Below are positions 1,521 through 64,000 of a stretch of 64,000 bases of DNA, one piece after another. The position numbers were made by a program, and so were the translations under genes. The notes under the pieces were generated by a model. The model saw only the letters and a program-made list of their open reading frames with translations. It ran no database searches and was not told where the DNA came from. Every line of letters starts with the position of its first letter. Position 1 is the stretch's first letter. The DNA is from Bacteroidota bacterium. Its GTDB lineage: Bacteria; Bacteroidota; Bacteroidia; Flavobacteriales_D; Crocinitomicaceae. The DNA lies in NCBI GenBank assembly GCA_006226425.1, contig SBGX01000010.1:1-64000 (forward strand), written 5' to 3'.

Positions 1521-1590
1521 ACATGATTTAGACCAAAAATTAACTTGTGGATATTCCAAATTGGGTTTTGATCGCCTCTTTCGTCTAACT

Positions 1591-2262: not shown

Positions 2263-2463
2263 CAGTGTAAACGGTATTAACTGCGAATATATGGCTTTCA
2301 AATTTGAGTTCAGGTCAGCATTTCTTATGTTTACAGTTCCAAAGACCATATTTACTCAACTATGAAAAATAATTTCACCTTTTCCTTCCAATTCCTCCCG
2401 CTCCTCATCGCAAAATCCTGATTATCAAACTTGCATAATCACTAAACAGAGGTACTCAGGGAA

Positions 2464-2866: not shown

Positions 2867-2890
2867 TTTACAGATCAACCAACTTAACAA

Positions 2891-2920
2891 GGCAGCCTAA
2901 TTGATAGGCTGCCCTTTTTT
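2891..2920 (+). terminator. rho-independent terminator
   Basis: A perfect 9-bp stem (GGCAGCCTA / TAGGCTGCC) with a 5-base loop is followed by CTTTTTT. It closes the plus-strand remnant that ends at 2866 and probably belonged to the lost T9SS-sorted gene. Confidence 0.88.
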
Positions 2921-3039
2921 AATTTCGTCCTGAGAAGTTCCTGAATTTTAGGTTTGACTATTTGGTCGTAAAAACATAACCTTGTGCTGCGATCAAAAAT
3001 AAAAAAGCCACTAGTCTTCGACCAATGGCTTCTGTCTTG

Positions 3040-3114
3040 TGGGCGATACTGGATTCGAACCAGTGACCCCCTGCTTGTAAGGCAGGTGCTCTGAACCAAC
3101 TGAGCTAATCGCCC
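3040..3114 (-). tRNA. tRNA-Val (anticodon UAC)
   Basis: The minus strand folds into a full cloverleaf: a 7-bp acceptor stem (GGGCGAT/ATCGCCC), D stem GCTC/GAGC, anticodon stem CCTGC/GCAGG with loop CTTACAA, and T stem ACTGG/CCAGT with loop TTCGAAT. The anticodon TAC (genome 3077-3079) reads the valine codon GUA. The discriminator is A and CCA is not encoded. Confidence 0.95.
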
Positions 3115-3172
3115 GATACGTAAAGTGCTATTGTCGTTTCAATAGCGAGTGCAAATATAGCCAATAATAAAT

Positions 3173-4417
3173 TTATGTCAAGTCATTTCTTGAAAAAAAA
3201 GTGAAAAAATCACTTAGCAAAAAGAAACTTCCACAAATTAGGATTTGATCTCCTTCATTTACAATGCTTTGTGCATAATCCCAGGCTTGTGAGACCCGCG
3301 AAAAAACTTCTATGGCTCGTTTGCTTTCAGCAGCCATTTCTTTCCAGCGAGTCACATCCACGGATCTGGGATTTCGAAAAGTGCTTGCAATCAAGACACC
3401 ATCTAGTGGAAACAATTCCAACAGTTCCGCCTGATCCTTTTCCTTTGTTGAACCGAAAATAATGATCAATTTTCCTTTCTCCCTTTTAGGAATGCTTCGC
3501 AGTAAAGCCCTGATCCCGTCTTCATTGTGTGCCGCATCCAATATCACATTCGGAAATTCCTTCAAGCGATGCATCCGCCCCCCATACCCCGTATTCGAGT
3601 GTGCTTTTCTAATTCCATCGAGCACTTGCTGCTCCGTGCAGGAAACTCCCGCTTCCCTCAGAAGAGACACAGCTCCTCGAACCGTTCTTTCATTCTCCTG
3701 CTGATAAGCTCCCTCGTGCCACAACTCTACACTTACTTTACACTCTTCTGCATAATACAGTGGCGCCTTTCTCTCATGACTTACCTGTAGATACACCTGC
3801 TCCGTCTCCGGCTGCCTTTTCCCAATAAGCACTGGAACTTCTCGCTTGATAATTCCCGCTTTCTCGAAGGCTATCTTTTCCAGAGAATCTCCAAGCACCT
3901 GAGCATGATCCATCCCTATGCGCGTAATTACACTTAACAAAGGACGAATGATGTTCGTCGCATCCAAACGTCCTCCCATCCCAACTTCGATCACGCAAAT
4001 TTCACATTCTTCCTCCAGGAAATGCTTGAGAGCCATCAGCCAGGTGATTTCAAAGAAAGAAGGTTGCATGCCCAAATCCTGTTGTTTTACCTGTTCACAA
4101 AAAGAAATCACTTTTTCTTCCGGAATCTGTACTCCATTTACCCGAATTCTTTCCGTAAAATCGATCAAATGTGGAGAAGTGAATAAACCAGTCTTGTAAG
4201 AAGCCTCCTGAAACACCGATGCCAACATGTGACAACAGGAACCTTTTCCGTTCGTTCCCGCAATGTGCACGTACTTCAATTTTTCATAAGGAATTTCAAA
4301 AATCCGGCACAATTCAAGAATGTTCCCCACATCAGGCTTATAGGCCATCAATCCATCTCGCTGAAACGCCGGAAACTGCTGAAAAAGCCAATCCGTTGCC
4401 TGAGTATAGGTCATCAT
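3173..4417 (-). CDS. folC: bifunctional folylpolyglutamate synthase / dihydrofolate synthase
   Basis: A Mur-ligase family protein of 414 residues that adds glutamate to dihydropteroate or folates. The ATP-binding P-loop AGTNGKGS lies at 53-60, followed by the family signature GLFTSPHLIDFTERIRVNG, and later VIEVGMGGRLDATN and the C-terminal-domain motif LDAAHNEDG. It starts 7 bases after the TonB-like gene and is the last gene of the nhaD-exbB-exbD-tonB-folC run. Two ATG codons stand in tandem at the start, and either may be used. Confidence 0.93.
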   Translation of the reverse strand: MMTYTQATDWLFQQFPAFQRDGLMAYKPDVGNILELCRIFEIPYEKLKYVHIAGTNGKGSCCHMLASVFQEASYKTGLFTSPHLIDFTERIRVNGVQIPEEKVISFCEQVKQQDLGMQPSFFEITWLMALKHFLEEECEICVIEVGMGGRLDATNIIRPLLSVITRIGMDHAQVLGDSLEKIAFEKAGIIKREVPVLIGKRQPETEQVYLQVSHERKAPLYYAEECKVSVELWHEGAYQQENERTVRGAVSLLREAGVSCTEQQVLDGIRKAHSNTGYGGRMHRLKEFPNVILDAAHNEDGIRALLRSIPKREKGKLIIIFGSTKEKDQAELLELFPLDGVLIASTFRNPRSVDVTRWKEMAAESKRAIEVFSRVSQAWDYAQSIVNEGDQILICGSFFLLSDFFTFFSRNDLT

Positions 4418-4424
4418 TTGGAAA

Positions 4425-5159
4425 TCACCGCGCCGATAGGTTCACGGTCAAAAATTGAATTTCTGGGGCCGCTCCTGCCACCTGATTGTATCGAACCTGT
4501 GACTTGACATTGGAAATCACCTGATTGATAATCACCTGATTGACTGTGGTTGTTCGGGAAACTATATTCTGTGCTTTAATCACCCGTCCTTCTCCATTCA
4601 CGGTAAGCTTCAAAAAAATCTTACAATCCTGATCGGATTGAATCCCATCGTTATTCGGATCATTTAGGCGAATTCGAGGTTTCTGTCCTCCATCCTTTCC
4701 TGGTCCGCTTCCATCTCCCTGGTCCTGGCCAAAACCATGACCGTCACCTCCATCCTCACCGTCTCCGGAACCTCCGGAATTGAACGGATTACTGGATTTT
4801 TGCGTCGTACTTGCCTGATTGTTCGGATCGTGATTTTTGGTCGAATGGTTACTTTCTCCCGTCTTTGTCGTCGTTTTAGACTCTTGTTTGGTAATCACTT
4901 TCTGAGTCTGTGACTCTGGTGTTTTACTAACTGGTGCCTCAGTCGGTTTCCCGGAACCACCTCCCTCTACGATCATCTTTTTCAGATTGATCTCTTTGGG
5001 CAAACTGATCGTCGTCGCCAACGGAATATCTTTCGGAGGAGGATCCGCCAGGGTAAAACTTACCAATTTCAGATAAAGAAAGATCAAAAGCACCATGAAC
5101 AAGGCCGCTATCAGCCCCTTGCGCTCGTCTTTTTTATCCGCAATTGGGATTCTACTCAT
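4425..5159 (-). CDS. TonB-like energy transducer
   Basis: A 244-residue inner-membrane-anchored periplasmic protein. One membrane segment (about residues 15-35, AALFMVLLIFLYLKLVSF) follows a short basic cytoplasmic start. A long low-complexity linker rich in Ser, Thr, Gly, Asp and Lys then spans the periplasm, and residues about 160-244 look like a TonB C-terminal domain (KIFLKLTVNGEGRVIKAQN). The gene is preceded 5 bases away by exbD and then exbB, so the three should form one proton-driven energising complex for outer-membrane receptors. The C-terminal domain is divergent, so a TolA-like role cannot be excluded. Confidence 0.75.
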   Translation of the reverse strand: MSRIPIADKKDERKGLIAALFMVLLIFLYLKLVSFTLADPPPKDIPLATTISLPKEINLKKMIVEGGGSGKPTEAPVSKTPESQTQKVITKQESKTTTKTGESNHSTKNHDPNNQASTTQKSSNPFNSGGSGDGEDGGDGHGFGQDQGDGSGPGKDGGQKPRIRLNDPNNDGIQSDQDCKIFLKLTVNGEGRVIKAQNIVSRTTTVNQVIINQVISNVKSQVRYNQVAGAAPEIQFLTVNLSAR

Positions 5160-45043: not shown

Positions 45044-46945
45044 ATGTGCGGAATTAACGGTTTAATCTCATGGAAGCAGCCATCAGCAGACAATCGAATG
45101 CTGGTGGAGCGAATGAATCATGCCCTCCAACATCGGGGACCAGACGGAGAAGGAATTTGGTCCACTCTAGATCACCGTGTTCACCTGGGACATCGACGTC
45201 TGAGCATCCTTGATCTCAGTGAGGCGGGGAAACAGCCCATGATAGATCGTGAAACACAAACGGTCATCAGCTATAACGGAGAAGTTTTCAATTTTCAGGA
45301 ACTCAAATCACATTGGCTTTCCGATCAATCCTTCCAGTCCAGAACAGATACGGAAGTTCTTTTAAAACTGTATCGAAAACTTGGAAAAGAGATGTTTCCC
45401 CAATTGAATGGCATGTTCGCCATCGCTATTTGGGATCAACAAGCGGAAGAACTTGTCCTGGCCAGGGATCTCATCGGTAAAAAACCACTTTACTGGCATT
45501 TTGACGGTCAAACGTTCAGCTTTTCATCTGAAATAAGAAGTTTGCTGGAACTCCCCTGGATTTCAGCCAAACTGGATGAAGAAGCGGCTTACGACTTCCT
45601 GACCTATAATATGACCCTAGGGAGTCAAACCATGTATCAGGGAATTCACAAGCTGGAACCAGGCAAACTGTTGGTCTTCAACAAACGATCCGAGGTACAA
45701 ATACATTCCTTTCAGGAACTTCAATTGGAAAGTGCCTTTCCAGAAGATGAATCCGAATTGATTCGGGAACTTCAGCAACGAACGCGATCTGTTGTCGAAA
45801 AAAGAATGATTTCAGATGTTCCTGTGGGCCTCTTCCTGAGCGGTGGAGTCGATTCCGGCGCCATCCTTGGAATCAGTCATGAACTTGGACATCGGAACAT
45901 GGCCTGCTATAATGTTTCCTACGAAGGGGCCGAAAACTATAATGAACGCGTTTATGCCGAACAACTGGCTAAAAGATTCGACGCTCAATTGGAAAATTGT
46001 GTGGTTCAAAAAGAAGATGTACTCACTTATCTCCCTCAGATCATCGAGACCTATGATGAACCACAAGCAGATACAACCGCCATACCGATTCATTTCATCT
46101 CAAAAATGGCCTCGGAACAAGGATACAAAGTCATGTTAAACGGAGACGGTCCGGATGAATTGTTTGCCGGTTACAATAGCTATCAAAACTATCTTCAAAA
46201 GGATGCCTGGTTTCAAAAAATGAAAGATATGCCCTCTGTCATCCAACGATTCGCTCATACCGGTCTGAAATATTTCAAGGCAGAATCGAATGAACTGGAG
46301 ATGATGGAACGAATTCTTCAAAAACAGCACTTCTACTGGCCCGGAGCAGCCGGGATCAAAGCAAGTCACAAAAAGCACTTGATGAGTACTGATTTTATGA
46401 AGCGAAATCCGCACCTTGATTCGTACAACGCAGTTCGAGCATTGGAAAAAGATTTCTTTGCATTCAAAAAATCAGATCAATTTGACTTACTCGACTGGAT
46501 GTGTTTTACTGGTATCAAACAAGCAATTCCGGAACGCTTTCTCTACCGCTCCGATAAAATTGGCATGAGTCATTCCCTGGAAATGAGAAGTCCTTTCCTG
46601 GATCGTGAATTCGTCCAGTGGTCCCTAAGTCTTCCCGGAAAATGGAAAATCAAGGATGGAACGGGAAAATATTTGTTCAAAAAAAGTCTGGAAGACCTCC
46701 TTCCTCCGGAGATTCTCTACCGAAAAAAAATGGGCTTCTGTGTCCCTTTAAAAGAGTGGATTTCAGAGACCATCCTAAGCGAGATTGATCAGGAACTGGA
46801 CTATTTCTGTCAAAACAGTGACCTTTTTGATCGAAAACGGGTCCAAACATATATTCATCAGCTAAGAAATGGAAACGAATCCATGACCAACCGCATCTGG
46901 ACGATCTATTTCTTTATCAAATGGCATCGCCGTTGGATGACATGA
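45044..46945 (+). CDS. asnB: asparagine synthase (glutamine-hydrolysing), copy 1
   Basis: A 633-residue AsnB-type enzyme. It starts MCGINGL, so Met removal exposes the glutaminase Cys. The glutaminase domain carries MNHALQHRGPDGEG, GHRRLSILDLSEAGKQP and SYNGEVFNF. The synthetase domain has LSGGVDSGAILG and LNGDGPDELFAGYNSY. In polysaccharide loci such enzymes often amidate uronic acids or other sugar carboxylates, and that role is inferred here. It overlaps the next glycosyltransferase gene by 4 bases. Confidence 0.9.
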   Translation: MCGINGLISWKQPSADNRMLVERMNHALQHRGPDGEGIWSTLDHRVHLGHRRLSILDLSEAGKQPMIDRETQTVISYNGEVFNFQELKSHWLSDQSFQSRTDTEVLLKLYRKLGKEMFPQLNGMFAIAIWDQQAEELVLARDLIGKKPLYWHFDGQTFSFSSEIRSLLELPWISAKLDEEAAYDFLTYNMTLGSQTMYQGIHKLEPGKLLVFNKRSEVQIHSFQELQLESAFPEDESELIRELQQRTRSVVEKRMISDVPVGLFLSGGVDSGAILGISHELGHRNMACYNVSYEGAENYNERVYAEQLAKRFDAQLENCVVQKEDVLTYLPQIIETYDEPQADTTAIPIHFISKMASEQGYKVMLNGDGPDELFAGYNSYQNYLQKDAWFQKMKDMPSVIQRFAHTGLKYFKAESNELEMMERILQKQHFYWPGAAGIKASHKKHLMSTDFMKRNPHLDSYNAVRALEKDFFAFKKSDQFDLLDWMCFTGIKQAIPERFLYRSDKIGMSHSLEMRSPFLDREFVQWSLSLPGKWKIKDGTGKYLFKKSLEDLLPPEILYRKKMGFCVPLKEWISETILSEIDQELDYFCQNSDLFDRKRVQTYIHQLRNGNESMTNRIWTIYFFIKWHRRWMT

Positions 46946-50447: not shown

Positions 50448-52322
50448 ATGTGTGGAATTGTTGGTTATAGTCTAGATTTTCATCCGGACCCCGAAAAATT
50501 GCTTCGGGCAATCAAACACCGGGGACCTGATGGATCAGGATTTCATCAGGAAACAAGTGGTCAGTTTTGTACCGGCCTCGGGCATCAACGTTTGAGTATT
50601 TTGGATCTAACGAATGCCGCCGCCCAACCCATGAAGCATGCTTCAGAAAAGGTCGTGATCAGCTTCAATGGAGAAATTTACAATTTCAGAGAACTCAAAG
50701 CACAATTTCTACCTGATACTTCATTCAAAACCCAGGGTGATACAGAAGTCATTTTGGAACTGTATTTAAAGTTAGGCACCTCCTTTGTGGAACATTTGAA
50801 CGGGGACTTTGCCATTGCTATTTTGGATCATCGCATTGAAAAGCTATACCTTCTTCGCGATCGCATGGGAGTCAAACCACTGTATTATTGCCACAACGAA
50901 AAAGGACTCGTTTTTGCCTCTGAAATAAAAGCCCTTTTTGAACTTGAGGTCCCCCGGGAAGTAAACCAGGAAGAACTGCTCCCCTACCTCATTTTCAAAT
51001 ACAGTCCTGAAGATCGTACCATGATCCGGGGAGTTAAACGACTGACTCCCGCCCACGTATTGGAATATGACCTACAGAGCAAAAAACGATCTATCGCCCC
51101 CTACTGGGAACTCCGAAAGATTCCTGAATACATAGGAATGACGTACGGGGACGCGGAGGAAAAACTTCGAACATTGCTGGAGGACGCCATTCGCTTACGA
51201 CTCGTCTCAGACGTTCCATTGGGAGCTTTTCTTTCTGGTGGATTGGATTCTTCCATCATTGCCCACCATCTCAGAAATGAAAAGGATATACGTTATTTCT
51301 GTGCCGTAAAAGAACAGCGTGATTTACAAAAAGAAGGCAGTACTTCCGATGGATACTTTGCTCAGAAATTGGCCAACGAGTGGCGATTGGATTTGCATCA
51401 AACTCCGATTGGCAGCAAAGTCCTTACGAACGAATACTTACACAAAACGCTCTTATTCGGGGACGACCTGATCGCGGATGGTTCACAGATTCCTTCTTAT
51501 CTGATCAGCCAGGAAGCAGTCAGTGAACGGAAGGTCCTTCTTTCGGGTATGGGAGCCGATGAAATTTTTCTGGGATACGCCGGACATCAATTGACCCGGG
51601 CATCACAGCTCATGCATTCCTTTCCTGGTTTCGTTGCGCGTCCGATGGCAAGAAAGATGGCCGGATTGAACCAGGGAAAAGGAAGATGGCTGGCTTACAG
51701 ACGTTATCTACATAAACTAGGAAAATATGCCTTCCATCCCCATAGGCTGCTGGCACTCAACATCGTCGGCGATTATGAAAGCGCTCAGAGTTTAATTCCC
51801 AGCGAACAAGCCAGTTTCGAAAATCAAATCACCCGTTTTTTCACCAGTGATCCGGACGAATTTGATCAACTATTTCATTTTGAACAACGGAATTTTTTGC
51901 ACAAAAACCTCAACTATATGGACCGAATGTCCATGGCTCATGGAGTTGAAACGCGCGTTCCTTTTCTGGATCATCGCCTGGTCGAATTTGCATACGCCCT
52001 ACCCCGCCATTTTAAATTAAGCAACTTCGGGAATGGAAAGCGCATTTTAAAATCTGCATATCGTGAACAGCTTCCGGCATACATTGTTAGGAGAAGAAAG
52101 GCCGGGTTTGGGATGCCCCTAAGAAGTATCTTTTCAGATGCCAGGGAAGTTGAACGACTCCTAAATATTGATTTTTTTAGTAATTTCAATCAGTTTTCCA
52201 TCGACCGCGTCCGTGAGTTGATACAAAAGCATCTCAGCGGACAGGAAGATCATTCCGCACTGATTTATGCACTGATTTCATTTCAACATTGGTACGGAAT
52301 ACACATTGAACAGCGTCTATGA
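50448..52322 (+). CDS. asnB: asparagine synthase (glutamine-hydrolysing), copy 2
   Basis: A 624-residue AsnB-type enzyme starting MCGIVGYSLDF. The glutaminase domain has IKHRGPDGSG, GHQRLSILDLTNAAAQP and SFNGEIYNF. The synthetase domain has FLSGGLDSSIIAHH and LLSGMGADEIFLGY. It differs clearly from the copy 1 protein 5 kb upstream, so it is not a recent duplicate. It probably amidates a second carboxylate in the glycan (inference). It overlaps the next gene by 4 bases. Confidence 0.9.
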   Translation: MCGIVGYSLDFHPDPEKLLRAIKHRGPDGSGFHQETSGQFCTGLGHQRLSILDLTNAAAQPMKHASEKVVISFNGEIYNFRELKAQFLPDTSFKTQGDTEVILELYLKLGTSFVEHLNGDFAIAILDHRIEKLYLLRDRMGVKPLYYCHNEKGLVFASEIKALFELEVPREVNQEELLPYLIFKYSPEDRTMIRGVKRLTPAHVLEYDLQSKKRSIAPYWELRKIPEYIGMTYGDAEEKLRTLLEDAIRLRLVSDVPLGAFLSGGLDSSIIAHHLRNEKDIRYFCAVKEQRDLQKEGSTSDGYFAQKLANEWRLDLHQTPIGSKVLTNEYLHKTLLFGDDLIADGSQIPSYLISQEAVSERKVLLSGMGADEIFLGYAGHQLTRASQLMHSFPGFVARPMARKMAGLNQGKGRWLAYRRYLHKLGKYAFHPHRLLALNIVGDYESAQSLIPSEQASFENQITRFFTSDPDEFDQLFHFEQRNFLHKNLNYMDRMSMAHGVETRVPFLDHRLVEFAYALPRHFKLSNFGNGKRILKSAYREQLPAYIVRRRKAGFGMPLRSIFSDAREVERLLNIDFFSNFNQFSIDRVRELIQKHLSGQEDHSALIYALISFQHWYGIHIEQRL

Positions 52323-54457: not shown

Positions 54458-55614
54458 AACATGAAGAACTGAAGGAGGCGATCAAAGCTTTACAAAAACA
54501 CATTGAATCTTCTGAATATAGGGGCTTTGATCCCTATGACGGATTGGAATCTCCGATTTTTCAATGGCCCATTTTTCGATCCTGGAAGTCCTTTCGTTTT
54601 TATGCGCAACAATTAGTTAAGCGAAGTTCAATCAATTTGCGCCCATTATTGGGAATCAAACCCGGCCTTAATCCAGTAACCTTGGGCTTATGCCTCCAAT
54701 CTTACAGTTACCTGGCACTTGCCGATCCCTCCGAGAAGGAAACATACCTCCAACATGCAGAAGCGATGATCGATCAGCTTTCAAAGCTCCGATCCGAGGG
54801 GTACAACGGACTCTGTTGGGGCTACAATTTTGATTGGGAAGCAAGATATGCAAGCATTCCAGCTTTTGCACCCACCATCGTAGCGACTGGAATCATCACC
54901 AACGCCCTCTACGAGAACTGGTCGCTCCACGGAAATGAACGAAGCAAAGAAATGCTTCTTCAGAGTAGAGCATTTGTCCTGGAAGATTTAAATCGAAGTC
55001 AAAGCCCAAACGGAATTTGCTTCTCCTATTCGCCGCTTGATCAGCAACTGGTGCTCAATGCCTCCATGAAAGCAGCCCGTTTACTCGCCCAATGTTACTC
55101 AATTGCCCCTGACCGGGAAGACCGAAAAGTAGCTTTGGACACCGTCAACTACGTACTAAGTCAGCAAGCGGAAGACGGATCATTCCCCTATTCCGACAAA
55201 CGATCAAAAATTGATCATTATCACACCGCCTACGTCATCGATTGTTTACATTCGTGTCAAACACTCCTCCAGGAAGCGTCTATTTTTCCTTCCCTGGAAA
55301 AAGCCTATGCGTTCTACAAAAATGACCTAATCACCGACCAGGGGCACCCCAAATTCTATTCGGATGCAGAGTTTCCACTGGATTGTACGGCTGCAGGACA
55401 GGGCATACTCAGTCTCTGTCGTTTTCAGGATCTTGAAATAGCCTCTGAAATGGCCAGTTATACGATTCAGGAAATGCAATCACCAAAGGGATCCTTCTAT
55501 TTTAGAAAATATCCTCCAAAAACGAATAAAAGCTCGTTCATGAGATGGTCTGATGCCTGGATGTTTGCTGGACTAAGCTCATTGTTATTTCATCAGCAAA
55601 ACCGGAAAGCATGA
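54454..55614 (+). CDS. alpha-helical toroid-like protein in polysaccharide locus
   Basis: A 386-residue protein rich in paired helices with aromatic residues, like an alpha/alpha toroid. Motif-like parts are GYNGLCWGYNFDWEARYASIP, FAPTIVATGIITNALY, VNYVLSQQAEDGSFPYSD, KIDHYHTAYVIDCL and MRWSDAWMFAGLSSLL. The layout resembles the helix-rich prenyltransferase or glycan-processing folds found in polysaccharide operons (VpsJ-like). It lacks a signal peptide. A role in epimerising or processing a lipid-linked glycan is possible, but no catalytic residues could be assigned. Confidence 0.65.
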   Translation: MKHEELKEAIKALQKHIESSEYRGFDPYDGLESPIFQWPIFRSWKSFRFYAQQLVKRSSINLRPLLGIKPGLNPVTLGLCLQSYSYLALADPSEKETYLQHAEAMIDQLSKLRSEGYNGLCWGYNFDWEARYASIPAFAPTIVATGIITNALYENWSLHGNERSKEMLLQSRAFVLEDLNRSQSPNGICFSYSPLDQQLVLNASMKAARLLAQCYSIAPDREDRKVALDTVNYVLSQQAEDGSFPYSDKRSKIDHYHTAYVIDCLHSCQTLLQEASIFPSLEKAYAFYKNDLITDQGHPKFYSDAEFPLDCTAAGQGILSLCRFQDLEIASEMASYTIQEMQSPKGSFYFRKYPPKTNKSSFMRWSDAWMFAGLSSLLFHQQNRKA

Positions 55615-56690
55615 CCATTTTATTCCACCTGGGGCATCCGGCACACTTCCATCTGTTTAAGTTTTCGATCCGAGAATTGAAAGCATCCGGACACCACGTT
55701 CTAATTGCTATCAAAAAAAAGGACGTACTTGAAGAATTGCTGCAAGATTCCGGGCTGGACTACGTCAATATTCTCCCGGAAGGGAAGAAGCAAAGCAAAT
55801 GGGACCTGATCCGATCTCAGTGGAAACAGATTCGGGCCATTCATCGCCTGGTCAAAAAGGAAAAAGTGGATCTCCTCTGCGGGACCTCCGCGGCTATTTC
55901 TCTAGTTGGAAAATGGAATGGGATCACCAGCTACAATTTCAATGAAGACGATGCGGAAGTCGTTCCAATGTATGCCCGACTCGCCTATCCCTGGGCCACA
56001 CTGATTTTTGCCCCCAAATGTTGCTCTGTCGGAAAGTGGCAGCAGAAAAAAATAGCCTACCCTTCCTACCATGAACTAGCTTATTTGCATCCTGATCATT
56101 TCACTCCGGACTCAAAAATTTGGGAACAATACTTTGCCCAGAACGAATCTGTTTTCCTCATTCGTTTTGCGCAACTTACTGCACATCATGACAGCGGAAT
56201 CAAAGGAATAAATCTGGAACTTGCCCTAAAAATCATCGAAAAACTGGAACAGCATGGCACGATCTGCATCAACAGTGAAAAGGAACTTCCGCCTGAACTC
56301 GAGAAGTACCAGCTTCACATAAAAGCTTCGGAGATGCATCACATTCAAGCCAACTGCCGATTGTTTATCGGAGATAGTCAAACCATGTCTGCAGAATGCG
56401 CTGTCCTTGGAGTTCCATTCATCCGAATTAACGATTTTGCTGGACGCCTCTCCTACCTCGAAGAATTGGAAAACCATTTTGGACTTGGTAAAAGCTTTCT
56501 ACCTCAAGAAAAGGAGCAAATTCTGGAGACGCTCGACCATTGGTTAAATGCAAAGAATCTTCATTCCCAATGGCAGGAGAAAAAAGTACAAATGTTAACT
56601 CAACGTATTAATTTGTCCGACTACATCACCAGACAATTACTTCGCGCTCCCAAAGAGCTTCTAGAAGAGTCAGGAAAGGCCCGCCAATGA
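55611..56690 (+). CDS. DUF354-type GT-B protein
   Basis: A 359-residue protein with the DUF354 signature: ILFHLGHPAHFHLFKFSIREL at the start, LLCGTSAAISLVGKWNGI, YNFNEDDAEVV, and a C-terminal LFIGDSQTMSAECAVLGVPFIRIND nucleotide-sugar-binding-like stretch. The family has the fold of UDP-GlcNAc 2-epimerase and GT-B enzymes and usually lies in glycan loci, with activity unproven. It overlaps the toroid gene by 4 bases. The 45 bases to the next gene are the largest gap in this part of the operon. Confidence 0.8.
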   Translation: MTILFHLGHPAHFHLFKFSIRELKASGHHVLIAIKKKDVLEELLQDSGLDYVNILPEGKKQSKWDLIRSQWKQIRAIHRLVKKEKVDLLCGTSAAISLVGKWNGITSYNFNEDDAEVVPMYARLAYPWATLIFAPKCCSVGKWQQKKIAYPSYHELAYLHPDHFTPDSKIWEQYFAQNESVFLIRFAQLTAHHDSGIKGINLELALKIIEKLEQHGTICINSEKELPPELEKYQLHIKASEMHHIQANCRLFIGDSQTMSAECAVLGVPFIRINDFAGRLSYLEELENHFGLGKSFLPQEKEQILETLDHWLNAKNLHSQWQEKKVQMLTQRINLSDYITRQLLRAPKELLEESGKARQ

Positions 56691-56735: not shown

Positions 56736-57527
56736 ATGCGAAGAAAAAGTAAGCTCTTCCATACCACGATTTTGATTGTTGTCCTTGGCATTTTACTGCC
56801 GGCATGTAAGACTCGTGAAAAGCTCGTCTATTTTCAACATGGCGATCTTCCGGACAGCACGGAACAGAAGATTCCCTTTGAATTTCGATACAAACCGAAT
56901 GACATTGTTTCTATCAACATATCAAGCTCTAACCCAGAACTCGTTAAACCATTTAATGCAAACCTGCTACCTAGTAATTATCCGGACGGGTATACGAGTG
57001 GGAATGCTTCGCGAGACGGATACCTGATTGACGAGCAGGGAGAAATTCAATTTCCGGTCATCGGAAGCATTAAGATTGGTGGACTCAGTCGAACTGAAGC
57101 GATTGAAGTCATGACCAAAAAGCTCAAAGAATACGTGGATGATCCCATTGTTAATATGCGGGTCACCAACTTCAAAGTGACCATTCTGGGAAGTGTCAAC
57201 CAACCCGGAACTTTCAACATTCCAAATGAGCGAATTTCCTTATTGGAAGCATTGGGATTAGCGAAAGACACCAAGATCACTGGGATTCGGAAAAATGTAT
57301 TGATTATTCGGGACGAAGATGGCCAGAAAAAAGAGTATCGGATCGATTTGACCTCCCGGGAATTCTACAAATCTCAGGTATACTACCTGGAACAAAATGA
57401 TGTCGTTTATGTGGAACCGAATAAGAAAGAACGCTTCGGTTCAACAGTATTCAAATCATCTACCGGAATTTTCGTTTCATCGGTAACGGTTGTTCTAACT
57501 GCCCTAAACATCATACTGAACCAGTGA
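56736..57527 (+). CDS. Wza-like polysaccharide export lipoprotein
   Basis: A 263-residue outer-membrane export protein. The signal peptide has a lipobox at LPACK (Cys23). A Poly_export domain follows (YKPNDIVSINISS ... YLIDEQGEIQFPVIGSIKIGGLSRTEAIEVM) and an SLBB domain (KVTILGSVNQPGTFNIPNE). A C-terminal hydrophobic stretch (SSVTVVLTALNIIL) may span a membrane. It should form the outer channel that works with the Wzc-type kinase directly downstream. It overlaps that gene by 4 bases. Confidence 0.9.
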   Translation: MRRKSKLFHTTILIVVLGILLPACKTREKLVYFQHGDLPDSTEQKIPFEFRYKPNDIVSINISSSNPELVKPFNANLLPSNYPDGYTSGNASRDGYLIDEQGEIQFPVIGSIKIGGLSRTEAIEVMTKKLKEYVDDPIVNMRVTNFKVTILGSVNQPGTFNIPNERISLLEALGLAKDTKITGIRKNVLIIRDEDGQKKEYRIDLTSREFYKSQVYYLEQNDVVYVEPNKKERFGSTVFKSSTGIFVSSVTVVLTALNIILNQ

Positions 57528-59881
57528 GTGTAAGTAGCAAATACAAAATGGAAGGTGGAGAGCACCATGAAAATCAGTCTTTTAGTCTGGAAACCATCCT
57601 GTATTACCTGAAGCGAAGCCATTGGTTCGTCCTGGGGGTTCTTTTTTGCTTTTTGATGGCTCATCTGAAGCTGCGCTACGCCACTCCCCTCTTCCGTTCA
57701 ACGGCCAAAGTATTGTTCAAAACAGATGATAGCGGAGGACTCTTCAATGAGGGGTCGGCATTCCAGGACTTTGGATACGGTTATTACTCTCCGATTGAAA
57801 ATGAAATAGAGACGCTTAAGTCTCGATCACTGATGAAGGAGGTTGTCAAAAACCTCAAATTGAACATCGTATTTTATGATAACAACGGATTGGTTCCAGT
57901 TGAAAAATACAAAGACTCCCCGTTGAAAGTCACTTTTTTGCAGGGAGATTCTAGCGTTTATGAAACGGGGGCTCGTTTTGAAATCAAAATACTCTCCGAC
58001 AATCATTTTTTGATCGAGAACGAAAAGGACAAGTTTCAATTCGAAGGTGCTTTTGGAAAGCCTTTCCAAACCAAAATTGGTGAACTGATCCTGACTCCAT
58101 CTGGAAATCAGGTAAAAATCAAAAGTGGTCGCAAGTACATTCTCTATGTCTATTTACTTGAAGATATTGTGGATCAATATGCAGGATCAATCCAGGTGAT
58201 CCGGGCCAACGAGATGTCCAACGTCCTCGAAATCGGATTAATTGACAATTCAATCGACAAAGCTACCGACATCGTGAACCAGGTGATCGCCCAACATCAG
58301 CAAGAGGCCATTGATGACCACAACCAGGTCGCCAAAAATTCAATTCGCTTCATCAATGACCGGATCGGAATCATTTCCAAAGAGCTTGCCGACGTGGAGG
58401 GGGATGCCCAGGCATTTAAGACTGCTGAAAAAATTGTGGATGTCGGGTCCGAAGCGACCATTTTCATGGAAACGCAGCAGGAAATCGAAAAAGAGATTGT
58501 TGAAAATCAAATCCAGGTTAAATTAGCCGAATACGTCAACGAATACATTTCGGACAATCAGGACCCCACGGAATTGCTCCCAACGAATCTGGGACTTTCA
58601 GACCTTTCCATTATCAATGGTATAGAAACATACAACAACCTTGTATTGGAACGCAACCGAATTTTAGAACACTCCAATCCCAAAAATCCGGTAGCGATCA
58701 ATCTCGAATCCAAAATCCTGAACCTACAGAAAAACCTGGTCGAGAGTTTGCGAAAATATGAAACGACCCTCAAGGTCCGTGGAAAACAACTCGCACTTCA
58801 GAACGAAAAGCTGAACAAGCGAATTCAATCTGTTCCCAAACAGGAAAAATTGTTGCGCGAGATTCAGCGACAACAGCAAATCAAGGAATCTCTATACCTC
58901 TACCTGCTTCAAAAAAGGGAGGAAACGGCCATTACGCTTTCATTGACGGTTGCGAACAGCCGGGTCATCGACGAAGCTCACTCGAACGGAAATGTCGTGA
59001 GTCCGAATAGAAAGAACACCTATCTGATCGCTTTGATCCTGGGAATGGTCATCCCTTTTGTGATCCTGTTTGTCATTCGTAGAATGAACAATAAAATTCA
59101 GAACCGGGAAGAAATCGAAAGCCGCGGATTAAAAACCTTGTGTGAAATTCCTCAGAGCAAGACCAAAGGTGGAAATACCGTGTTCGACTCCAAAGAAAAT
59201 TCTGCCCTGGCCGAATCATTCCGTCTGCTGCGGACCAATTTGGACTTCATTTTGAAGATCAACGAATCAAAATGTAAGGTAGTCGTGGTTACTTCTACCA
59301 TCCCCGGAGAAGGAAAATCTTTTGTCTCACTGAATTTAGCCAAGTCCCTGGCGATTATCGGAAAACGAGTATTGGTACTGGGAATGGATTTGCGATCACC
59401 AACTTTGAATAAATACCTGGGTGTTCCTAACCAAATTGGTGTTTCCAATTTCATTGTCGATGCGGACATCACTATTGATCAAATTACAATGCCCCATCCG
59501 GAGGATCAGGAATTTGATCTCATTTGCTCAGGGGATATTCCTCCAAACCCTGCTGAATTGCTCTTACACCATCGCGTTAATCAGCTTTTCCAGCATGCCC
59601 AGGAACGCTACGACTATATTGTTGTGGACACTCCACCAGTTGGGGTCATTTCAGACACTTTACTATTGACAGGACATGCCGATATGTTCCTTTACATTGT
59701 TCGGGAGCGTTTCACACCGAAAAAGTATCTCAAACAGATCATTCAACTGAAGGAACAAAAGCGTTTGCCAAATGTTCAACTTGTACTCAACTGTGCTCAT
59801 GAAAAATCAGCATACGGGTACAATTATTACGGAAAGCCAGCAAAGAAAAAAGGAATTTCAAAAAAAGGTGAACGATCCTAG
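57524..59881 (+). CDS. Wzc-like tyrosine autokinase / chain-length regulator
   Basis: A 785-residue bacterial tyrosine kinase. A membrane segment near residue 35 (FVLGVLFCFLMAHL) starts a periplasmic Wzz/GNVR region with coiled coils, closed by a second segment (LIALILGMVIPFVILFVI, about 500). The cytoplasmic kinase follows: Walker A TIPGEGKSFVSLN, Walker A' VLVLGMDLRSPTL and Walker B YIVVDTPPVGV. The C-terminus has a Tyr cluster (AYGYNYYG) for autophosphorylation. It starts with GTG overlapping the wza stop (GTGA), or at ATG 57548. It controls polymer length and export. The 3' end overlaps the HprK-like gene. Confidence 0.9.
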   Translation: MSVSSKYKMEGGEHHENQSFSLETILYYLKRSHWFVLGVLFCFLMAHLKLRYATPLFRSTAKVLFKTDDSGGLFNEGSAFQDFGYGYYSPIENEIETLKSRSLMKEVVKNLKLNIVFYDNNGLVPVEKYKDSPLKVTFLQGDSSVYETGARFEIKILSDNHFLIENEKDKFQFEGAFGKPFQTKIGELILTPSGNQVKIKSGRKYILYVYLLEDIVDQYAGSIQVIRANEMSNVLEIGLIDNSIDKATDIVNQVIAQHQQEAIDDHNQVAKNSIRFINDRIGIISKELADVEGDAQAFKTAEKIVDVGSEATIFMETQQEIEKEIVENQIQVKLAEYVNEYISDNQDPTELLPTNLGLSDLSIINGIETYNNLVLERNRILEHSNPKNPVAINLESKILNLQKNLVESLRKYETTLKVRGKQLALQNEKLNKRIQSVPKQEKLLREIQRQQQIKESLYLYLLQKREETAITLSLTVANSRVIDEAHSNGNVVSPNRKNTYLIALILGMVIPFVILFVIRRMNNKIQNREEIESRGLKTLCEIPQSKTKGGNTVFDSKENSALAESFRLLRTNLDFILKINESKCKVVVVTSTIPGEGKSFVSLNLAKSLAIIGKRVLVLGMDLRSPTLNKYLGVPNQIGVSNFIVDADITIDQITMPHPEDQEFDLICSGDIPPNPAELLLHHRVNQLFQHAQERYDYIVVDTPPVGVISDTLLLTGHADMFLYIVRERFTPKKYLKQIIQLKEQKRLPNVQLVLNCAHEKSAYGYNYYGKPAKKKGISKKGERS

Positions 59882-60722
59882 GCACTTGTCAGACAACGAT
59901 TTTTCCATCCCGATTCAGGACGTAAAGATTAGCGTCAAGTCTTTTGAGTCCCCTGTTCTTCCTCCACTTGATGAAGAAACTTCATTGAATGAAACACACT
60001 TTTTATTACGAGTTCCTCAAGTAGCGAACTATTTGGTCAAAGAAGGACGAGAAATTTTCATTGAACCGGCGGAAGGTGCCGAACAAGATTTGATTCGTTT
60101 GTATCTGAATGGATCGGTATTGGGTGCCCTACTTATTCAACGCAACATCCTATGTTTTCACGCAAGCGCCTTTGAATACCATCAACAAGCTGTCCTGATC
60201 TGTGGTGAATCCGAAAGTGGCAAATCATCACTGGCTTTGGCCATGCACCTGAATGGAATGAAACTAATCAACGATGATATTTGTCCCATCAATCATCCAG
60301 ACTTCAATGTCCTGCCACTTGAAACTCCTTCCAAACTGTGGGCTGATAGTCTACAGGAACTTCAACAAGAAAAGTTAAAAGGTCCGGCCATTCATTCGGG
60401 AGAAAACAAGTTTTTCGTAGACATCAAGCATAAGCAGCACGAAAATCTACCGGTAAGAGGGATCATCATTCTGGAAAACGACGCTGTCAATGATTTTGAG
60501 ATCGAAGCATTGCAGGGAATGGAAAAATTTACGGCTCTGAGAAGTCATTTGTATCGAGGGAATTACCTGGCTCAAATGCCAAAAACAGAAAGCTTATTTC
60601 ATCAACGGCTCAGTTTATTGGCCAGTAGAATTCCTGTATTTAGATTCAATCGCCCCTATTCAGCAAACATTGAAACGAGCCAGGCAAGGCTTTTAAGTGT
60701 ACTGGAAAAGTACTACCTTTGA
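59868..60722 (+). CDS. HPr-kinase-like lasso-peptide tailoring kinase
   Basis: A P-loop protein related to the HPr kinase fold. With a GTG start at 59868 it has 284 residues; the open frame extends to an ATG at 59799, which would overlap wzc by 83 bases. The Walker A motif CGESESGKSSLALAMH is near residue 113, followed by KLINDDICPI (HPr-kinase-like LxxDD). In paeninodin-type lasso clusters such kinases phosphorylate the C-terminal Ser of the precursor, and the precursor here ends in Ser. The adjacent B2, precursor, C and B1 genes support this role. Activity is inferred. Its stop overlaps the next start. Confidence 0.8.
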   Translation: MNDPRHLSDNDFSIPIQDVKISVKSFESPVLPPLDEETSLNETHFLLRVPQVANYLVKEGREIFIEPAEGAEQDLIRLYLNGSVLGALLIQRNILCFHASAFEYHQQAVLICGESESGKSSLALAMHLNGMKLINDDICPINHPDFNVLPLETPSKLWADSLQELQQEKLKGPAIHSGENKFFVDIKHKQHENLPVRGIIILENDAVNDFEIEALQGMEKFTALRSHLYRGNYLAQMPKTESLFHQRLSLLASRIPVFRFNRPYSANIETSQARLLSVLEKYYL

Positions 60723-61153
60723 TTGTGCACCGATTATTGACATCACTGAGGAATTTCATCTTTCGCTGGAGCCTGAGCGAGAAGACACTGTTCCTGGAAG
60801 CAGTCACCACGCAACTCGGTGTCAAATTGTTCCTTTTAATAATTCCTTTTAAAAGCTGTTTGCGCTGGTTCCCCCCAGCCCAGGAAGAAACAAGAAATTC
60901 ATCGCAAGACGAAGTACTGAAGGCTATTCGAAAGGCTGTTCGACGATCAGGAAAGTTGGTCTCCTGGAAAAATCAATGCCTGGTACTAGGCTTCACGGCC
61001 AGGATCATGTTAAAACGTAGGGGAATCCATTCTTCCATCATTTTAGGAGCAAATAAGAACGTGGCTCAATGGAATATGCATGCCTGGGTCGAAAGCAGAG
61101 GAATAGAGATTACACCAATGAACGGAAATTTCCAGGCACTCCATCGTTTTTAA
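60719..61153 (+). CDS. lasso peptide B2 leader peptidase (transglutaminase-like)
   Basis: A 144-residue protein matching the B2 family of lasso-peptide clusters, a cysteine protease with a transglutaminase fold that removes the leader. The catalytic Cys is C87 in NQCLVLGFTARIML, the His is H121 in NMHAWVE, and E125 may replace the third residue. Other family parts are RWFPPAQEE and GIHSSIILGANK. The start is TTG at 60719, which overlaps the kinase stop (TTGA); a GTG at 60725 is an alternative. The precursor gene follows after 65 bases. Confidence 0.88.
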   Translation: MIVHRLLTSLRNFIFRWSLSEKTLFLEAVTTQLGVKLFLLIIPFKSCLRWFPPAQEETRNSSQDEVLKAIRKAVRRSGKLVSWKNQCLVLGFTARIMLKRRGIHSSIILGANKNVAQWNMHAWVESRGIEITPMNGNFQALHRF

Positions 61154-61166
61154 TGCGAACGTTCCA

Positions 61167-61198
61167 TTTGCTATTCTCTCAGAATAATTGTTTCTTTG
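61167..61198 (+). promoter_or_regulatory. possible internal promoter for the lasso precursor gene
   Basis: TTTG (61167-61170), 20 bases, then TTTCTTTG (61191-61198), one mismatch from TAnnTTTG. Transcription would start near 61205, before the ATG at 61219. It sits in the only long gap of the RiPP cluster and would give extra precursor mRNA. Confidence 0.35.
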
Positions 61199-61218
61199 TT
61201 ATGCAAAGCGGAAAGACC

Positions 61219-61359
61219 ATGAAAGAAAAGAAAACCCAACAAAAAAAGAAATGGCACTCCCCGAAAGTACAGGTGATGGACGTACGTTCAAACACGGCTG
61301 ACGGAACCGGAATGGGAGGAGAAACCATTATGATGGGAATGGTCAGTAAAGGTTCCTGA
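61219..61359 (+). CDS. lasso peptide precursor candidate
   Basis: A 46-residue peptide (52 residues if ATG 61201 is used) between the B2 and macrolactam synthetase genes. The basic start is followed by a leader pattern like those bound by PqqD-type B1 proteins: W12, P15, V17 and QVMDV (18-22), similar to the Y-x-P-x-L-x-V-x-D-V pattern of paeninodin-type leaders. T26 could be the conserved Thr near the cleavage site. The core would start at A27 or D28, with E35 as ring acceptor (9- or 8-residue ring), then a Met-rich tail ending in S46, the likely phosphorylation site. CGGAAAG precedes the ATG. No aromatic plug residue is seen. Confidence 0.78.
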   Translation: MKEKKTQQKKKWHSPKVQVMDVRSNTADGTGMGGETIMMGMVSKGS

Positions 61360-61378: not shown

Positions 61379-63181
61379 TTGATTTGTGGTTGCTTTTCCC
61401 CGAACCAGGAGTTCAGAAAGGCTCAAAGCCTGGAACTGGCAAAGCGAATTGAACAGCCGGGTCGAGAAAATCACTCTATTGAATTTCATCATCTGACAGT
61501 CCATTTAATCGGTGAGACTAATCTTCAACAGCATTTTTTTATCGATGAAGAAAGAAATTGCTTGTTGGTCTATTCAGGTCATATTTATGGAGAGGAGTTC
61601 GTTGATAGCGAAAAGACAGTTGCCCGACAATTGTACGAACGATACCTGCAAAAAGGGAATCTATTTTGTACCGATCTCAACGGGGACTTCAGCCTACTGA
61701 TCTATGCTCCGAAATCAGGCAAATTGCTATTGGCCAGAGATCATTTGGGAATCGTACCCCTTTCTTACGCCAAACAGGAAAATACTCTCCTCTTTTCTTC
61801 TGATCATTTTCACCTTTGTGCCTTACTTCATCAGGACTCTAAAGACTTCAATCCAATGGCATTGATGGGAGGGATTACCTCTATCCCCTACCCGCTAAGC
61901 ATTCATCATGGGGTACACAAACTCCTTCCGGGACATTTTCTGAACTACGATGACCACACATACGGGCAGGAGCGCTACTGGTTTCCGGAAAGCATTCGAA
62001 GCGATCACCGTATTCAGCGAACACAAGCACTTGAAGAGCTGAAACAATTACTCAATGACGCTATCCGAATCAGAATTCCGAAGTCTGGAAAATGCACCGC
62101 TCATGTCAGTGGAGGCCTGGATTCATCGTATCTGGCAGCCCACTTATCCAAATTTCAGCCTCAAATCGATCGGCAATTCTATTCCTGGTCTCCCGACTAC
62201 TCCATCATTCCCAAGCAAGAACACGATGAACGCGAACTCATTGAGGCCTTCGAGACGCACACAGAACAAAAGGTAACGCTCCTGGACAGTGATCCTCAAG
62301 ATTCCTCCCTACTTGAAAGTGCCTACTTTCCCGGGCTTAGTTCCTTCGAAGAAGAAAGAACACTGGCCGCCGCCAAAGAAGCAGGTTACCAGATTCTGTT
62401 CAGTGGTTGGGGAGGAGATGAATTTCTTGGTATGACCGATCCTCCGATCATCCAGGACGTATTCCGCTCTTTTCGATGGCTGCGTGCCTGGAAGGGAATC
62501 AAAAAAGAGGGAATCCGAAGGAAAGTCGGGTATTTTTGGTATCAGCTTCTGCTGCCCTCCCTGGGATTCATTCATCCAAGCATCAAAGAAACGCTTCGAA
62601 AAGAAGTCTACTATCTAAAAAAGGGGGAGGACATGATCGATTGGGAGCAACAAAAAAAAATCTATTGTTACCGGTCTCGCAGACATCGAATGATTCAACA
62701 GCTTTCGGCCTACCGAATAGCTGAGCGCACTGACATCAGTTATGCCCTTTCATATCTCTACAATATTGAATATAAATACCCCCTACTCGACAAACGAATC
62801 ATCGAGTATCTGTTTCAGATTCCCTCCAACTTAGTTTTTTCCGAACGAGAAAACCGGAGTCTGATGCGGCAACTCAGTCGTGAACTTTTACCTCCAAAAA
62901 TATCCGAAAACCAACGCAAACGAGACCCTGCATTGGATCAATTATCCGAAATATTTTACAGTGAGTGCACCTGGCGTTTTTCAAAGAGAATCCCAGAAAT
63001 ACAAAACGAGTCAATTTTAAGTATCTTTAAGCTTCCTTCCATTCAGGAGGACCTTTCGAAATTTGGCAAAGAGGAGATTGGTGAGGAAGAAAAAGAAATT
63101 TTGATGAGTTTCGTTTATAATTTGGAAATGTTCGTCCAATTTTGCGAAAAATACGACCATGAAAAAATATGCTCAAAATAA
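61379..63181 (+). CDS. lasso peptide macrolactam synthetase (asparagine-synthetase-like C protein)
   Basis: A 600-residue asparagine-synthetase-related protein. The N-terminal glutaminase-like domain starts with ICGCF and has LNGDFSLLIYAPKSGKLLLARDHLG. The ATP pyrophosphatase domain has VSGGLDSSYLAAHLS (SGGLDSS at 244-250) and LFSGWGGDEFLGM. In lasso clusters the C protein adenylates the Asp or Glu side chain and closes the ring. It begins with TTG at 61379, giving M-I-C; an ATT start at 61382 would place Cys at position 2. Its position between precursor and PqqD-like B1 argues for the lasso role over ordinary asparagine synthesis. Confidence 0.85.
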   Translation: MICGCFSPNQEFRKAQSLELAKRIEQPGRENHSIEFHHLTVHLIGETNLQQHFFIDEERNCLLVYSGHIYGEEFVDSEKTVARQLYERYLQKGNLFCTDLNGDFSLLIYAPKSGKLLLARDHLGIVPLSYAKQENTLLFSSDHFHLCALLHQDSKDFNPMALMGGITSIPYPLSIHHGVHKLLPGHFLNYDDHTYGQERYWFPESIRSDHRIQRTQALEELKQLLNDAIRIRIPKSGKCTAHVSGGLDSSYLAAHLSKFQPQIDRQFYSWSPDYSIIPKQEHDERELIEAFETHTEQKVTLLDSDPQDSSLLESAYFPGLSSFEEERTLAAAKEAGYQILFSGWGGDEFLGMTDPPIIQDVFRSFRWLRAWKGIKKEGIRRKVGYFWYQLLLPSLGFIHPSIKETLRKEVYYLKKGEDMIDWEQQKKIYCYRSRRHRMIQQLSAYRIAERTDISYALSYLYNIEYKYPLLDKRIIEYLFQIPSNLVFSERENRSLMRQLSRELLPPKISENQRKRDPALDQLSEIFYSECTWRFSKRIPEIQNESILSIFKLPSIQEDLSKFGKEEIGEEEKEILMSFVYNLEMFVQFCEKYDHEKICSK

Positions 63182-63422
63182 AGATTTGATCAGTACCAAA
63201 CTGGATGAAGAACTGATTATGCTCGATATCGATCAGGGAAAATACTTCGGACTCAACCCCGTGGCTGTGCGAATTTGGGAACTGATTGAATCTCCAAAGA
63301 GCCTGGATGAATTATGTGAAGCCTTACTTCAAGAATATGAAGTTTCCCCAGCGCTTTGTCAGCAAGACACCGCAGTTCATCTCGAAGAAATGATTCGCAT
63401 GAACCTAATCTCTCAGGTTTAA
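63159..63422 (+). CDS. PqqD-like lasso peptide B1 leader-binding protein
   Basis: An 87-residue protein with the PqqD/RRE pattern: ISTKLDEELIMLDIDQGKYFGLNPVAVRIWELIE in residues 11-44 (region given, with the conserved LDIDQGKYFGLN), then SLDELCEALLQEYEVSP and VHLEEMIRMNLI. Such proteins hold the leader peptide and deliver it to the B2 protease and C synthetase. It overlaps the synthetase gene by 23 bases and is followed 4 bases later by the Cys-rich gene. The length is normal for a stand-alone B1. Confidence 0.9.
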   Translation: MKKYAQNKDLISTKLDEELIMLDIDQGKYFGLNPVAVRIWELIESPKSLDELCEALLQEYEVSPALCQQDTAVHLEEMIRMNLISQV

Positions 63423-63426
63423 TTTC

Positions 63427-64000
63427 ATGAAACTGGCGGAAAAAATACCGCTTCTGTATCACCGATTCCTGGATGACTTGATCGGGATCACCGTTCCGGA
63501 AGAAGAGATTGCCCGCTGCTCAAGCTGTGGACTGTGTCAGCATCCAAAGAGTCCGTATCAGGAAACCAAATGTTGTAATTACCAACCCTTTCAGGCGAAT
63601 TTTCTGGTTGGGGCGATCTTAAGTGATTCATCCGATCAAATGAAAACTGGAAAACGTCTCACGGAAGAGCTAATCCAACAACGAAAAGGATTAACCGCAT
63701 TTGGGCTCATTCCGGATCGGAAGTACCAACAAAACCAACATCAAATACTCACTCTTCCTAAAAGTTTTCACAACCAGGAAGAAATCATTTCCCAACGCTG
63801 TTCTTTTCTGCATGAAGGACATTGCAGTATCTGGGCCTATCGGGAACACTTATGCATCACCTATTTTTGCAGTTCCGTTGGTGCTTCCACGGGGCAACAA
63901 TTTTGGTCTGAGCTCAATGAAATGATGAAACATATAGAGTATCAACTAGCCCAGCATTTTGCTCAGAAATTAGGAATTACATGGCCGGAGAATTTCACCG
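63427..64000 (+). CDS. Cys-rich YkgJ-like metal/iron-sulfur protein, cut by window end
   Basis: An open frame of at least 191 residues running off the window. Nine cysteines are visible: C31, C34, C37 in RCSSCGLC, C49-C50 in ETKCCNY, and C125, C133, C143, C148 in RCSFLHEGHCSIWAYREHLCITYFC (residues 124-148, shown in pieces). The pattern CxxC...CC plus CxFLxxGxCxIWxxRxxxC is that of the YkgJ/CxxCxxCC family, which is thought to bind zinc or an iron-sulfur cluster. It starts 4 bases after the lasso B1 gene, so it belongs to the operon and may be a tailoring or metal-handling factor. Its function is unknown. Confidence 0.75.
   Translation, partial: MKLAEKIPLLYHRFLDDLIGITVPEEEIARCSSCGLCQHPKSPYQETKCCNYQPFQANFLVGAILSDSSDQMKTGKRLTEELIQQRKGLTAFGLIPDRKYQQNQHQILTLPKSFHNQEEIISQRCSFLHEGHCSIWAYREHLCITYFCSSVGASTGQQFWSELNEMMKHIEYQLAQHFAQKLGITWPENFT

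Follow-up and report, generated by a model that had tools for sequence, protein, structure and literature searches.

The 46-residue open reading frame at 61219..61359 (+ strand) of the 64,000-nucleotide stretch of Crocinitomicaceae DNA analysed here (hereafter the window) raises the question of whether it encodes a genuine lasso-type precursor and, if so, what kind of peptide would be made from it. Its translation, MKEKKTQQKKKWHSPKVQVMDVRSNTADGTGMGGETIMMGMVSKGS followed by a stop codon, contains every residue that a sequence-only reading of the same DNA had named in proposing such a precursor: W12, P15, V17, D21-V22, T26, A27, D28, M32 and E35, then M38, M39, M41 and the S43-K-G-S46 end, with no Phe, Tyr or Trp past residue 12. 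A longer frame is open upstream (61069-61359, 96 aa); translation probably begins at 61219 (ATG), since this codon lies 65 bases past the stop codon of the preceding gene, B2, and a homologous precursor from a second species of the genus aligns from its own methionine (MKEK...KKKW).

The frame (gene A) belongs to an array of genes on one strand (+), in the order K-B2-A-C-B1-Y, separated by short gaps or overlapping; genes past the window end were read in the same genome (G000, 3.41 Mb) on contig C13. The lasso leader peptidase B2 (60719..61153, +, TTG start) matches NF033537 with 57.4 bits, over the cut-off of 33, and its Cys87 and His121 are invariant in eight sequences; it is of the transglutaminase-like type. 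The lasso cyclase C (61379..63181, +, TTG start) has an asparagine-synthase fold with the motif SGGLDSS and scores 77.8 bits with PF00733 (cut-off 21) and 112.8 bits with NF033535, under the cut-off of 525 of that model. B1 (63159..63422, +) is a PqqD-like RiPP recognition element (RRE), with 66.6 bits for PF05402, over 23.4, and NF033536 (lasso_PqqD_Bac) as its best NCBIfam model, at 69.8 bits for a cut-off of 80. The sequence-only reading had seen the remaining parts incompletely, Y being cut by the window end and two further genes, OG and N, lying partly or wholly outside it; N (G000:C13:65306-66475, +) matches PF14907 NTP_transf_5 with 135 bits. An exporter gene (D) was not noticed, by reading alone, among the open reading frames of the window and the next 12 kb.

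The identity of the precursor is borne out by a homologue at the equivalent spot in a same-genus genome (G019; L042:7612-7764, minus strand), where MKEKSLSSKKKWIKPEVKQLKISSQTANGMGMGMETYMWLTMKWSNGSYQ is encoded between B2 and C in a cluster of the order K-B2-A-C-B1-Y-N. The local alignment of the two precursors scores 103, a value equalled by none of 5000 shuffles, and the cores alone score 43, again equalled by 0/5000. In this one same-genus cluster, no other conserved open reading frame was found at the precursor position. Homology and gene context together confirm that the frame is real and encodes a lasso-type precursor. The more distant precursors linked to Y resemble it only weakly and as wholes, the number of shuffles reaching the observed score (out of 5000) being 187 for Runella aurantiaca, 1 for G983, 14 for G1011 and 54 for L080; with the core alone, 378 to 4998 of 5000 shuffles score as well, so that beyond G019 the cores are no more alike than chance. 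G1011, a genome of the same class and another order, carries K, OG, Y, C, A, B1, B2 and N all on one strand. The cluster is patchy, as only two of the five genomes of the genus (the target and G019) carry Y and a target-like cyclase; B2 was found in 4/299 genomes of the window's order, its own included, of which two gave short matches containing stop codons, and the B2 model was matched by 36/395 genomes of the phylum.

Several variants of such clusters came up alongside. Locus L067, which has the closest cyclase by tblastn (30%), encodes between C and B1 a 187-residue protein (L067:5268-5834, minus) with a match to PF03692 (CxxCxxCC; E=2.6e-4, 22.1 bits, cut-off 23), a second type of Cys-cluster protein in a cluster of this kind, and a PhyH dioxygenase (PF05721; L067:9225-10028, minus) adjoins its kinase gene. 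In L074, another Trp-leader cluster, a sulfotransferase gene (PF00685; L074:8569-9429, minus) lies between B1 and the kinase.

Which family does the precursor belong to? With NF033524, the NCBIfam model of paeninodin family lasso peptides, the target scores 21 bits (E=2.1e-4), below the cut-off of 27, so it falls short of curated membership and is paeninodin-like in its workings only. Among eight other Trp-leader precursors, two gave 14.4 and 11.2 bits with this model and six had no match; a search of 59 relatives returned nothing, controls included, and is therefore uninformative. NF033528 (lasso_cyano) matches the R. aurantiaca and G983 precursors with 23.8 and 19.8 bits, both below its cut-off of 33. 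The predicted leader, M1-A27 (61219..61299, +), follows from the ring register and the WxxP motif: W12 stands at -16, P15 at -13, V17 at -11 and T26 at -2, which gives the lasso leader pattern [YW]xxPx[LVI] with Thr at -2 when residue 1 is placed at D28. The LppA leader likewise has its motif at Y-16 and P-13 (PMC13381572), and WxxP is described as almost invariant among paeninodin-like precursors (PMC9266682, PMC13381572).

The predicted core, D28-S46 (61300..61356, +), would consist of an eight-residue ring, D28-E35, and the tail TIMMGMVSKGS ending in Ser46. The sequence-only reading had left the ring start open between A27 (nine residues) and D28 (eight residues), with Glu35 as the acceptor. 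The acceptor holds up and the relatives favour D28, because with the conserved Thr at -2 ring position 8 is acidic in six of seven Y-linked precursors, the target included, and in L045 (target, G019, R. aurantiaca, G983, G1011, a Cytophagales MAG and L045). In the Rhabdobacter precursor the acid falls at position 7. Two acids, at 7 and 9, are present in L067, and in L074 the position is 8 or 7 according to the choice between two Thr. The reading of this register covers these ten precursors only; several others with a Trp leader have no Thr at that place. Residue 1 would then be Asp in the target and G983, Asn in G019, Gly in R. aurantiaca and G1011, Ser in the Cytophagales MAG and Lys in Rhabdobacter; Gly1 occurs in three of the position-8 set (R. 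aurantiaca, G1011 and L045). The first residues observed in lasso peptides are given as Gly, Cys, Ser and Ala, to which the metanodin paper adds Asn (PMC12670498). As far as the accessible open-access literature on lasso peptides goes, no precedent for Asp1 was found, and a ring that starts with Asp would be new.

The other end of the core bears on the kinase. The HPr-kinase-like gene K (59868..60722, +) matches TIGR04352 and PF07475 below their cut-offs; with TIGR04352 (HprK_rel_A system) it reaches 31 bits against a cut-off of 200, which leaves it outside that family. Its frame is open from an ATG at 59772, and a GTG start at 59868 is proposed on the basis of the overlap with the end of wzc. 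The H-K-D-D residues, a motif reported for lasso kinases (PMC9266682), are invariant in 8/8 sequences, so the target cluster combines an H-K-D-D kinase with a precursor ending in Ser. Among 31 candidate precursors picked by hand from motif lists, a C-terminal Ser is found in 14/16 with W..P.[VIL] leaders and in 0/15 others (Fisher p=5e-7, a test that ignores relatedness, as do all the Fisher tests on this list). A mechanical list gives 14/19 Trp-leader open reading frames ending in Ser. When three WxxPxM leaders, none of which ends in Ser, are moved to the Trp class, the counts become 14/19 versus 0/12 (p=9e-5), and when three Trp-motif frames dropped from the hand list as spurious or off-strand (L046:5794, L064:12732 and L076:6473, none ending in Ser) are added as well, 14/22 end in Ser (p=2e-4). 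The hand list omits 17 lasso loci with no convincing candidate (L044, L050, L053, L055, L058-L061, L064, L068-L070, L073, L075, L077, L123 and L124), and within it the target and G019, and likewise R. aurantiaca and G983, share a genus.

The link between the C-terminal Ser and the kinase, suggested from the target alone, thus holds up in comparison, since Ser ends go with Trp leaders, although G019 ends in Gln. Two traits noted in the target, a core free of aromatic residues and the terminal Ser, are indeed there, whereas the tail of the sister precursor contains Y, W, W and Y and ends in ...GSYQ, so both traits vary within the subgroup. The precursors of R. aurantiaca and G983 likewise lack a terminal Ser, ending in Val and Met; their kinases keep H-K-D-D, and the phosphorylation site may therefore differ there.

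Y extends over 63427..64000 in the window and is complete at G000:C13:63427-64458 (+), encoding a Cys-rich protein of 343 aa with a C-terminal RRE-like domain. Nine cysteines are invariant in eight sequences. No Pfam or NCBIfam family matched it, and no sequence in the PDB did so below E=0.33; PF03692 (CxxCxxCC/YkgJ) gave no match on eight Y members up to E=10, although HMMER's filters let few matches above about 0.1 through. A short local match of 32 columns joins Y to the PF03692-like protein of the L067 cluster. The structure model has a mean pLDDT of 78.8, with the Cys-rich stretches 27-33 and 141-150 under 50. Residues 258-343 align with TigE (Z 9.5), the PbtF RRE (9.3), MccB (8.6), ThcOx (8.4) and leader-bound TbiB1 (Z 7.1). 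Of these structural matches, 8t19 and TbiB1 are RRE-bearing by title and the others are proteins that we take to contain RREs. The best Foldseek E-value was 0.025, with no match reaching E=0.001, and the assignment accordingly rests on the top structural matches being RREs and not on the E-value. The C-terminal domain of Y thus models like an RRE, a domain of the leader-binding type.

Patterns from a three-sequence Y alignment, run against a collection of 84,980 species genomes, picked out 19 loci, of which five adjoin lasso genes, and profile searches in overlapping sets found Y in 3/240 genomes of the family, 6/222 of the Runella family (one a remnant), 7/375 of the class (three weak) and 4/194 of the order of Runella. 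Of fourteen homologues of 24-29% identity (L085-L098), 13 are myxobacterial and one comes from a Bdellovibrionales MAG; with Bacteroidota queries, K, B1, B2, C and N were unmatched in all 14 loci, the open reading frames of five of which were read. Some of these homologues match across the RRE part too. At L125 and L126 only Y was matched, and no relative of Y turned up in the viral-contig scan. The Y-linked precursors outside the genus are MKNKSLLKPKRKYATPVLKHYGSVQKLTFGMGSGGGDGMSTMMDV in R. aurantiaca, ...NLTLDAGSDTADVNGLMGMAMM in G983, ...STSGPRAGSSDSNMMSS in G1011, ...QTLSKGGPGGDGGPGNQNRS in the Cytophagales MAG and ...LTLKTGSQSDAFSPYTP in Rhabdobacter, the last about 5 kb from Y; none was found near Y in Arundinibacter. 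B1, B2 and Y lie together in both Rhabdobacter (L122) and Arundinibacter (L123), with neither a cyclase nor a precursor found adjacent; Rhabdobacter has these two genes about 5-6 kb away. In G975, of the R. aurantiaca genus, the start of C (25 residues) and the end of Y (60 residues) stand side by side (L124:9274-9535, minus) with no precursor found between the remnants, while B1, B2 and K remain, as in a decayed cluster.

The Met-rich tail noticed in the target holds up in the same comparison. Two or more Met fall within the last 20 residues in 5/7 Y-linked precursors versus 1/24 others (Fisher p=7e-4, on the 31 hand-picked candidates), and in the single such precursor without Y both Met belong to the leader part; the other two Y-linked precursors have no Met in that stretch.

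OG (G000:C13:64433-65242, minus strand) is a probable cluster member, being 45% identical to its counterpart in the G1011 cluster, though on the opposite strand in the target. No match was found in the G019 locus, and among 188 genomes of the phylum only its own gave one. Perhaps it is an Fe(II)/2-oxoglutarate oxygenase: it matches PF13532 weakly (E=0.078), H148xD150 and H213 are kept in both available sequences, and it is 24-30% identical over 41-48% to five phage records, labelled as ferrochelatase (three), hypothetical (one) and 2OG-Fe(II) oxygenase superfamily (one). Neither a PDB sequence match below E=0.75 nor any plasmid match was found, and its structure model (pLDDT 37) is not usable.

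How the core is cut, folded and phosphorylated can be read in other ways. A cut between T26 and A27, with Ala1 joined to E35 in a nine-residue ring, would start the ring on a residue observed experimentally in that position, unlike Asp, which is not named there (PMC12670498), and T-A is conserved in the G019 precursor. We nevertheless regard this ring as distinctly improbable, as it would put Thr at -1, contrary to the penultimate Thr rule for lasso leaders (PMC10368454), and strip Gly1 from G1011, L045 and R. aurantiaca; G983, moreover, also yields Asp1 by the Thr(-2) rule. Similarly doubtful is a product that is not a threaded lasso, that is, a linear or branched cyclic peptide, proposed because the tail of the target, whose core lacks F, Y and W, has no bulky plug. 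Linear polyphosphorylated relatives without a cyclase are known in Bacilli (PMC13381572), but here the full B1-B2-C set is present, its cyclase with the SGGxDS motif, the sister tail carries Y and W, and Met, Ile or Lys could serve as plugs. With the eight-residue D28-E35 ring kept as the preferred reading, the kinase might, by analogy, act on core residue 3 (T30) rather than on the C-terminal Ser, as BsfK phosphorylates core Ser3 (PMC10368454) and LppK S3 (PMC13381572); residue 3 is a Thr in the target, and some Y-linked precursors end without Ser. We hold this to be unlikely in view of the 14/16 Trp-leader precursors that end in Ser (14/19 mechanically), of the Met and Arg, neither a possible acceptor, at this position in G019 and G1011, and of the rejection of an S3T substrate by LppK (PMC13381572). 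Ser46 stays the most likely site.

The role of Y is the other matter to be weighed. It could be incidental, co-inherited without acting on the peptide, the Met tails being inherited in common within a small number of lineages: the five Y-linked precursors that are Met-rich amount to about three (the window genus, the Runella genus and G1011), two of seven lack Met among their last 20 residues, and the myxobacterial homologues have no lasso genes found beside them. The RRE-like model of its C-terminal domain and the fact that it still accompanies lasso genes in divergent genomes, where its identity is 29-35%, speak for a function in the pathway, and we consider the incidental explanation somewhat unlikely, if still the one to be taken most seriously among these alternatives. 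Lysine methylation in the manner of FliB was set aside, as Lys is absent from the predicted cores of R. aurantiaca, G983 and G1011. A more specific and quite speculative proposal is that Y is an RRE-guided metalloprotein of a new kind that modifies the Met side chains of the lasso thread or loads metal on them, the product being a thioether-rich, phosphorylated Asp1 lasso that would bind a soft metal such as Cu(I) and be made and displayed with exopolysaccharide. No paper joining a lasso peptide with YkgJ was found in the open-access literature.

A DUF354-like glycosyltransferase gene (55611..56690, +; PF04007 18.8 bits, below the cut-off of 22) is followed by wza-like (56736-57527, +) and wzc-like (57524-59881, +) genes, named by eye from the sequence and located directly upstream of K, and a sugar transferase gene (PF02397) lies downstream of the cluster on the minus strand; the lasso operon reads as a continuation of the wza-wzc-like polysaccharide locus upstream. 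A DUF354-like homologue adjoins the kinase gene in G019 (49%, PF04007 48.9 bits) and lies about 6 kb upstream of it in G1011 (35%), where genes for Wzi (PF14052) and for a NusG-like protein also lie near the cluster. Polysaccharide queries gave at least one match in 7/14 Trp-leader loci (6/14 without L067, matched only by its own queries), compared with 3/30 other lasso loci (p=0.02 for 6/14) and 2/20 arbitrarily placed control regions (p=0.04); at least two matches were seen in 2/14 versus 0/20 controls (p=0.16), both loci (L067 and L120) having supplied some of the queries. The polysaccharide link of Trp-leader lasso loci is thus only suggestive. In Bacilli, clusters of the paeninodin type are often neighbours of capsule loci (PMC13381572), an association whose meaning is still an open question. 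The polysaccharide-type locus of the window also holds two more asparagine-synthase-like genes (45044-46945 and 50448-52322), distant from the lasso cyclase (at most 29% over the matched part).

Taken together, the frame is probably the precursor of a paeninodin-like, kinase-type lasso peptide, a reading for which the sequence support shown here is the homology with G019, the make-up of the cluster, the consistency of the register and the association of Ser ends with Trp leaders and of Met tails with Y. By analogy with PadeK, PsmN, BsfK and CanE for cleavage, ring, thread, phosphate, sugar and the parts played by Y and OG, B1 would bind the WxxPxV leader, K would phosphorylate the precursor, most likely on Ser46, and B2 would cut after A27, whereupon C would form the bond between the D28 amino group and the E35 side chain, closing an eight-residue ring with the Met-rich tail threaded through it. 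N (NTP_transf_5) would probably elaborate the phosphate, as PsmN does in pseudomycoidin, and Y, with its own RRE-type domain and nine-Cys cluster, and OG would serve in tailoring or in handling metal, with Y linked to the Met-rich tail.

Paeninodin (PadeA, with the kinase PadeK) is the closest parallel in its kinase cluster, B1, B2, C, C-terminal Ser and WxxP leader (PMC9266682, PMC13381572); the target differs in belonging to Bacteroidota and not Bacillota, in scoring below the NF033524 cut-off, and in its predicted Asp1, Met-rich tail and extra Y and OG. Kinase and nucleotidyltransferase also share a cluster in pseudomycoidin (PsmK, PsmN; PMC9266682), where the likeness of N, an NTP_transf_5 protein by Pfam, to PsmN is one of description, and the sugar transfer is a prediction. 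The bsf cluster of Bradymonas (BsfK, BsfN) is a Gram-negative lasso cluster with the same pair, whose kinase targets Ser3 and whose leader carries Ile at -2, unlike the Thr at -2 and C-terminal Ser of the target (PMC10368454). Read by the Thr(-2) rule, metanodin starts with a non-standard residue, Asn1 (PMC12670498), which is also the one predicted for G019; it is gammaproteobacterial, and the target would have Asp1. In canucin, a 2OG oxygenase (CanE) tailors the lasso precursor (PMC9266682), whereas OG has no family assignment above cut-off. FliB has clustered Cys, eight of them highly conserved, holding a [4Fe-4S] cluster (PMC8598068), compared with nine invariant in Y, which, unlike FliB and PF03692 proteins, has no Pfam or NCBIfam match and carries an RRE-like domain.

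Compared with the known lasso systems, this one would be a variant set apart by its predicted Asp1, its Met-rich tail and its two extra partners, Y and OG. The locus points to a kinase-type Trp-leader lasso system with a C-terminal Ser in Bacteroidota, whereas paeninodins are described as confined to Bacillota in a 2026 paper (PMC13381572), and the Bacteroidota clusters suggest a polysaccharide neighbourhood like that in Bacilli. It would also tie a Met-rich lasso thread to a family of Cys-rich, RRE-like proteins that stands outside the present Pfam and NCBIfam models.
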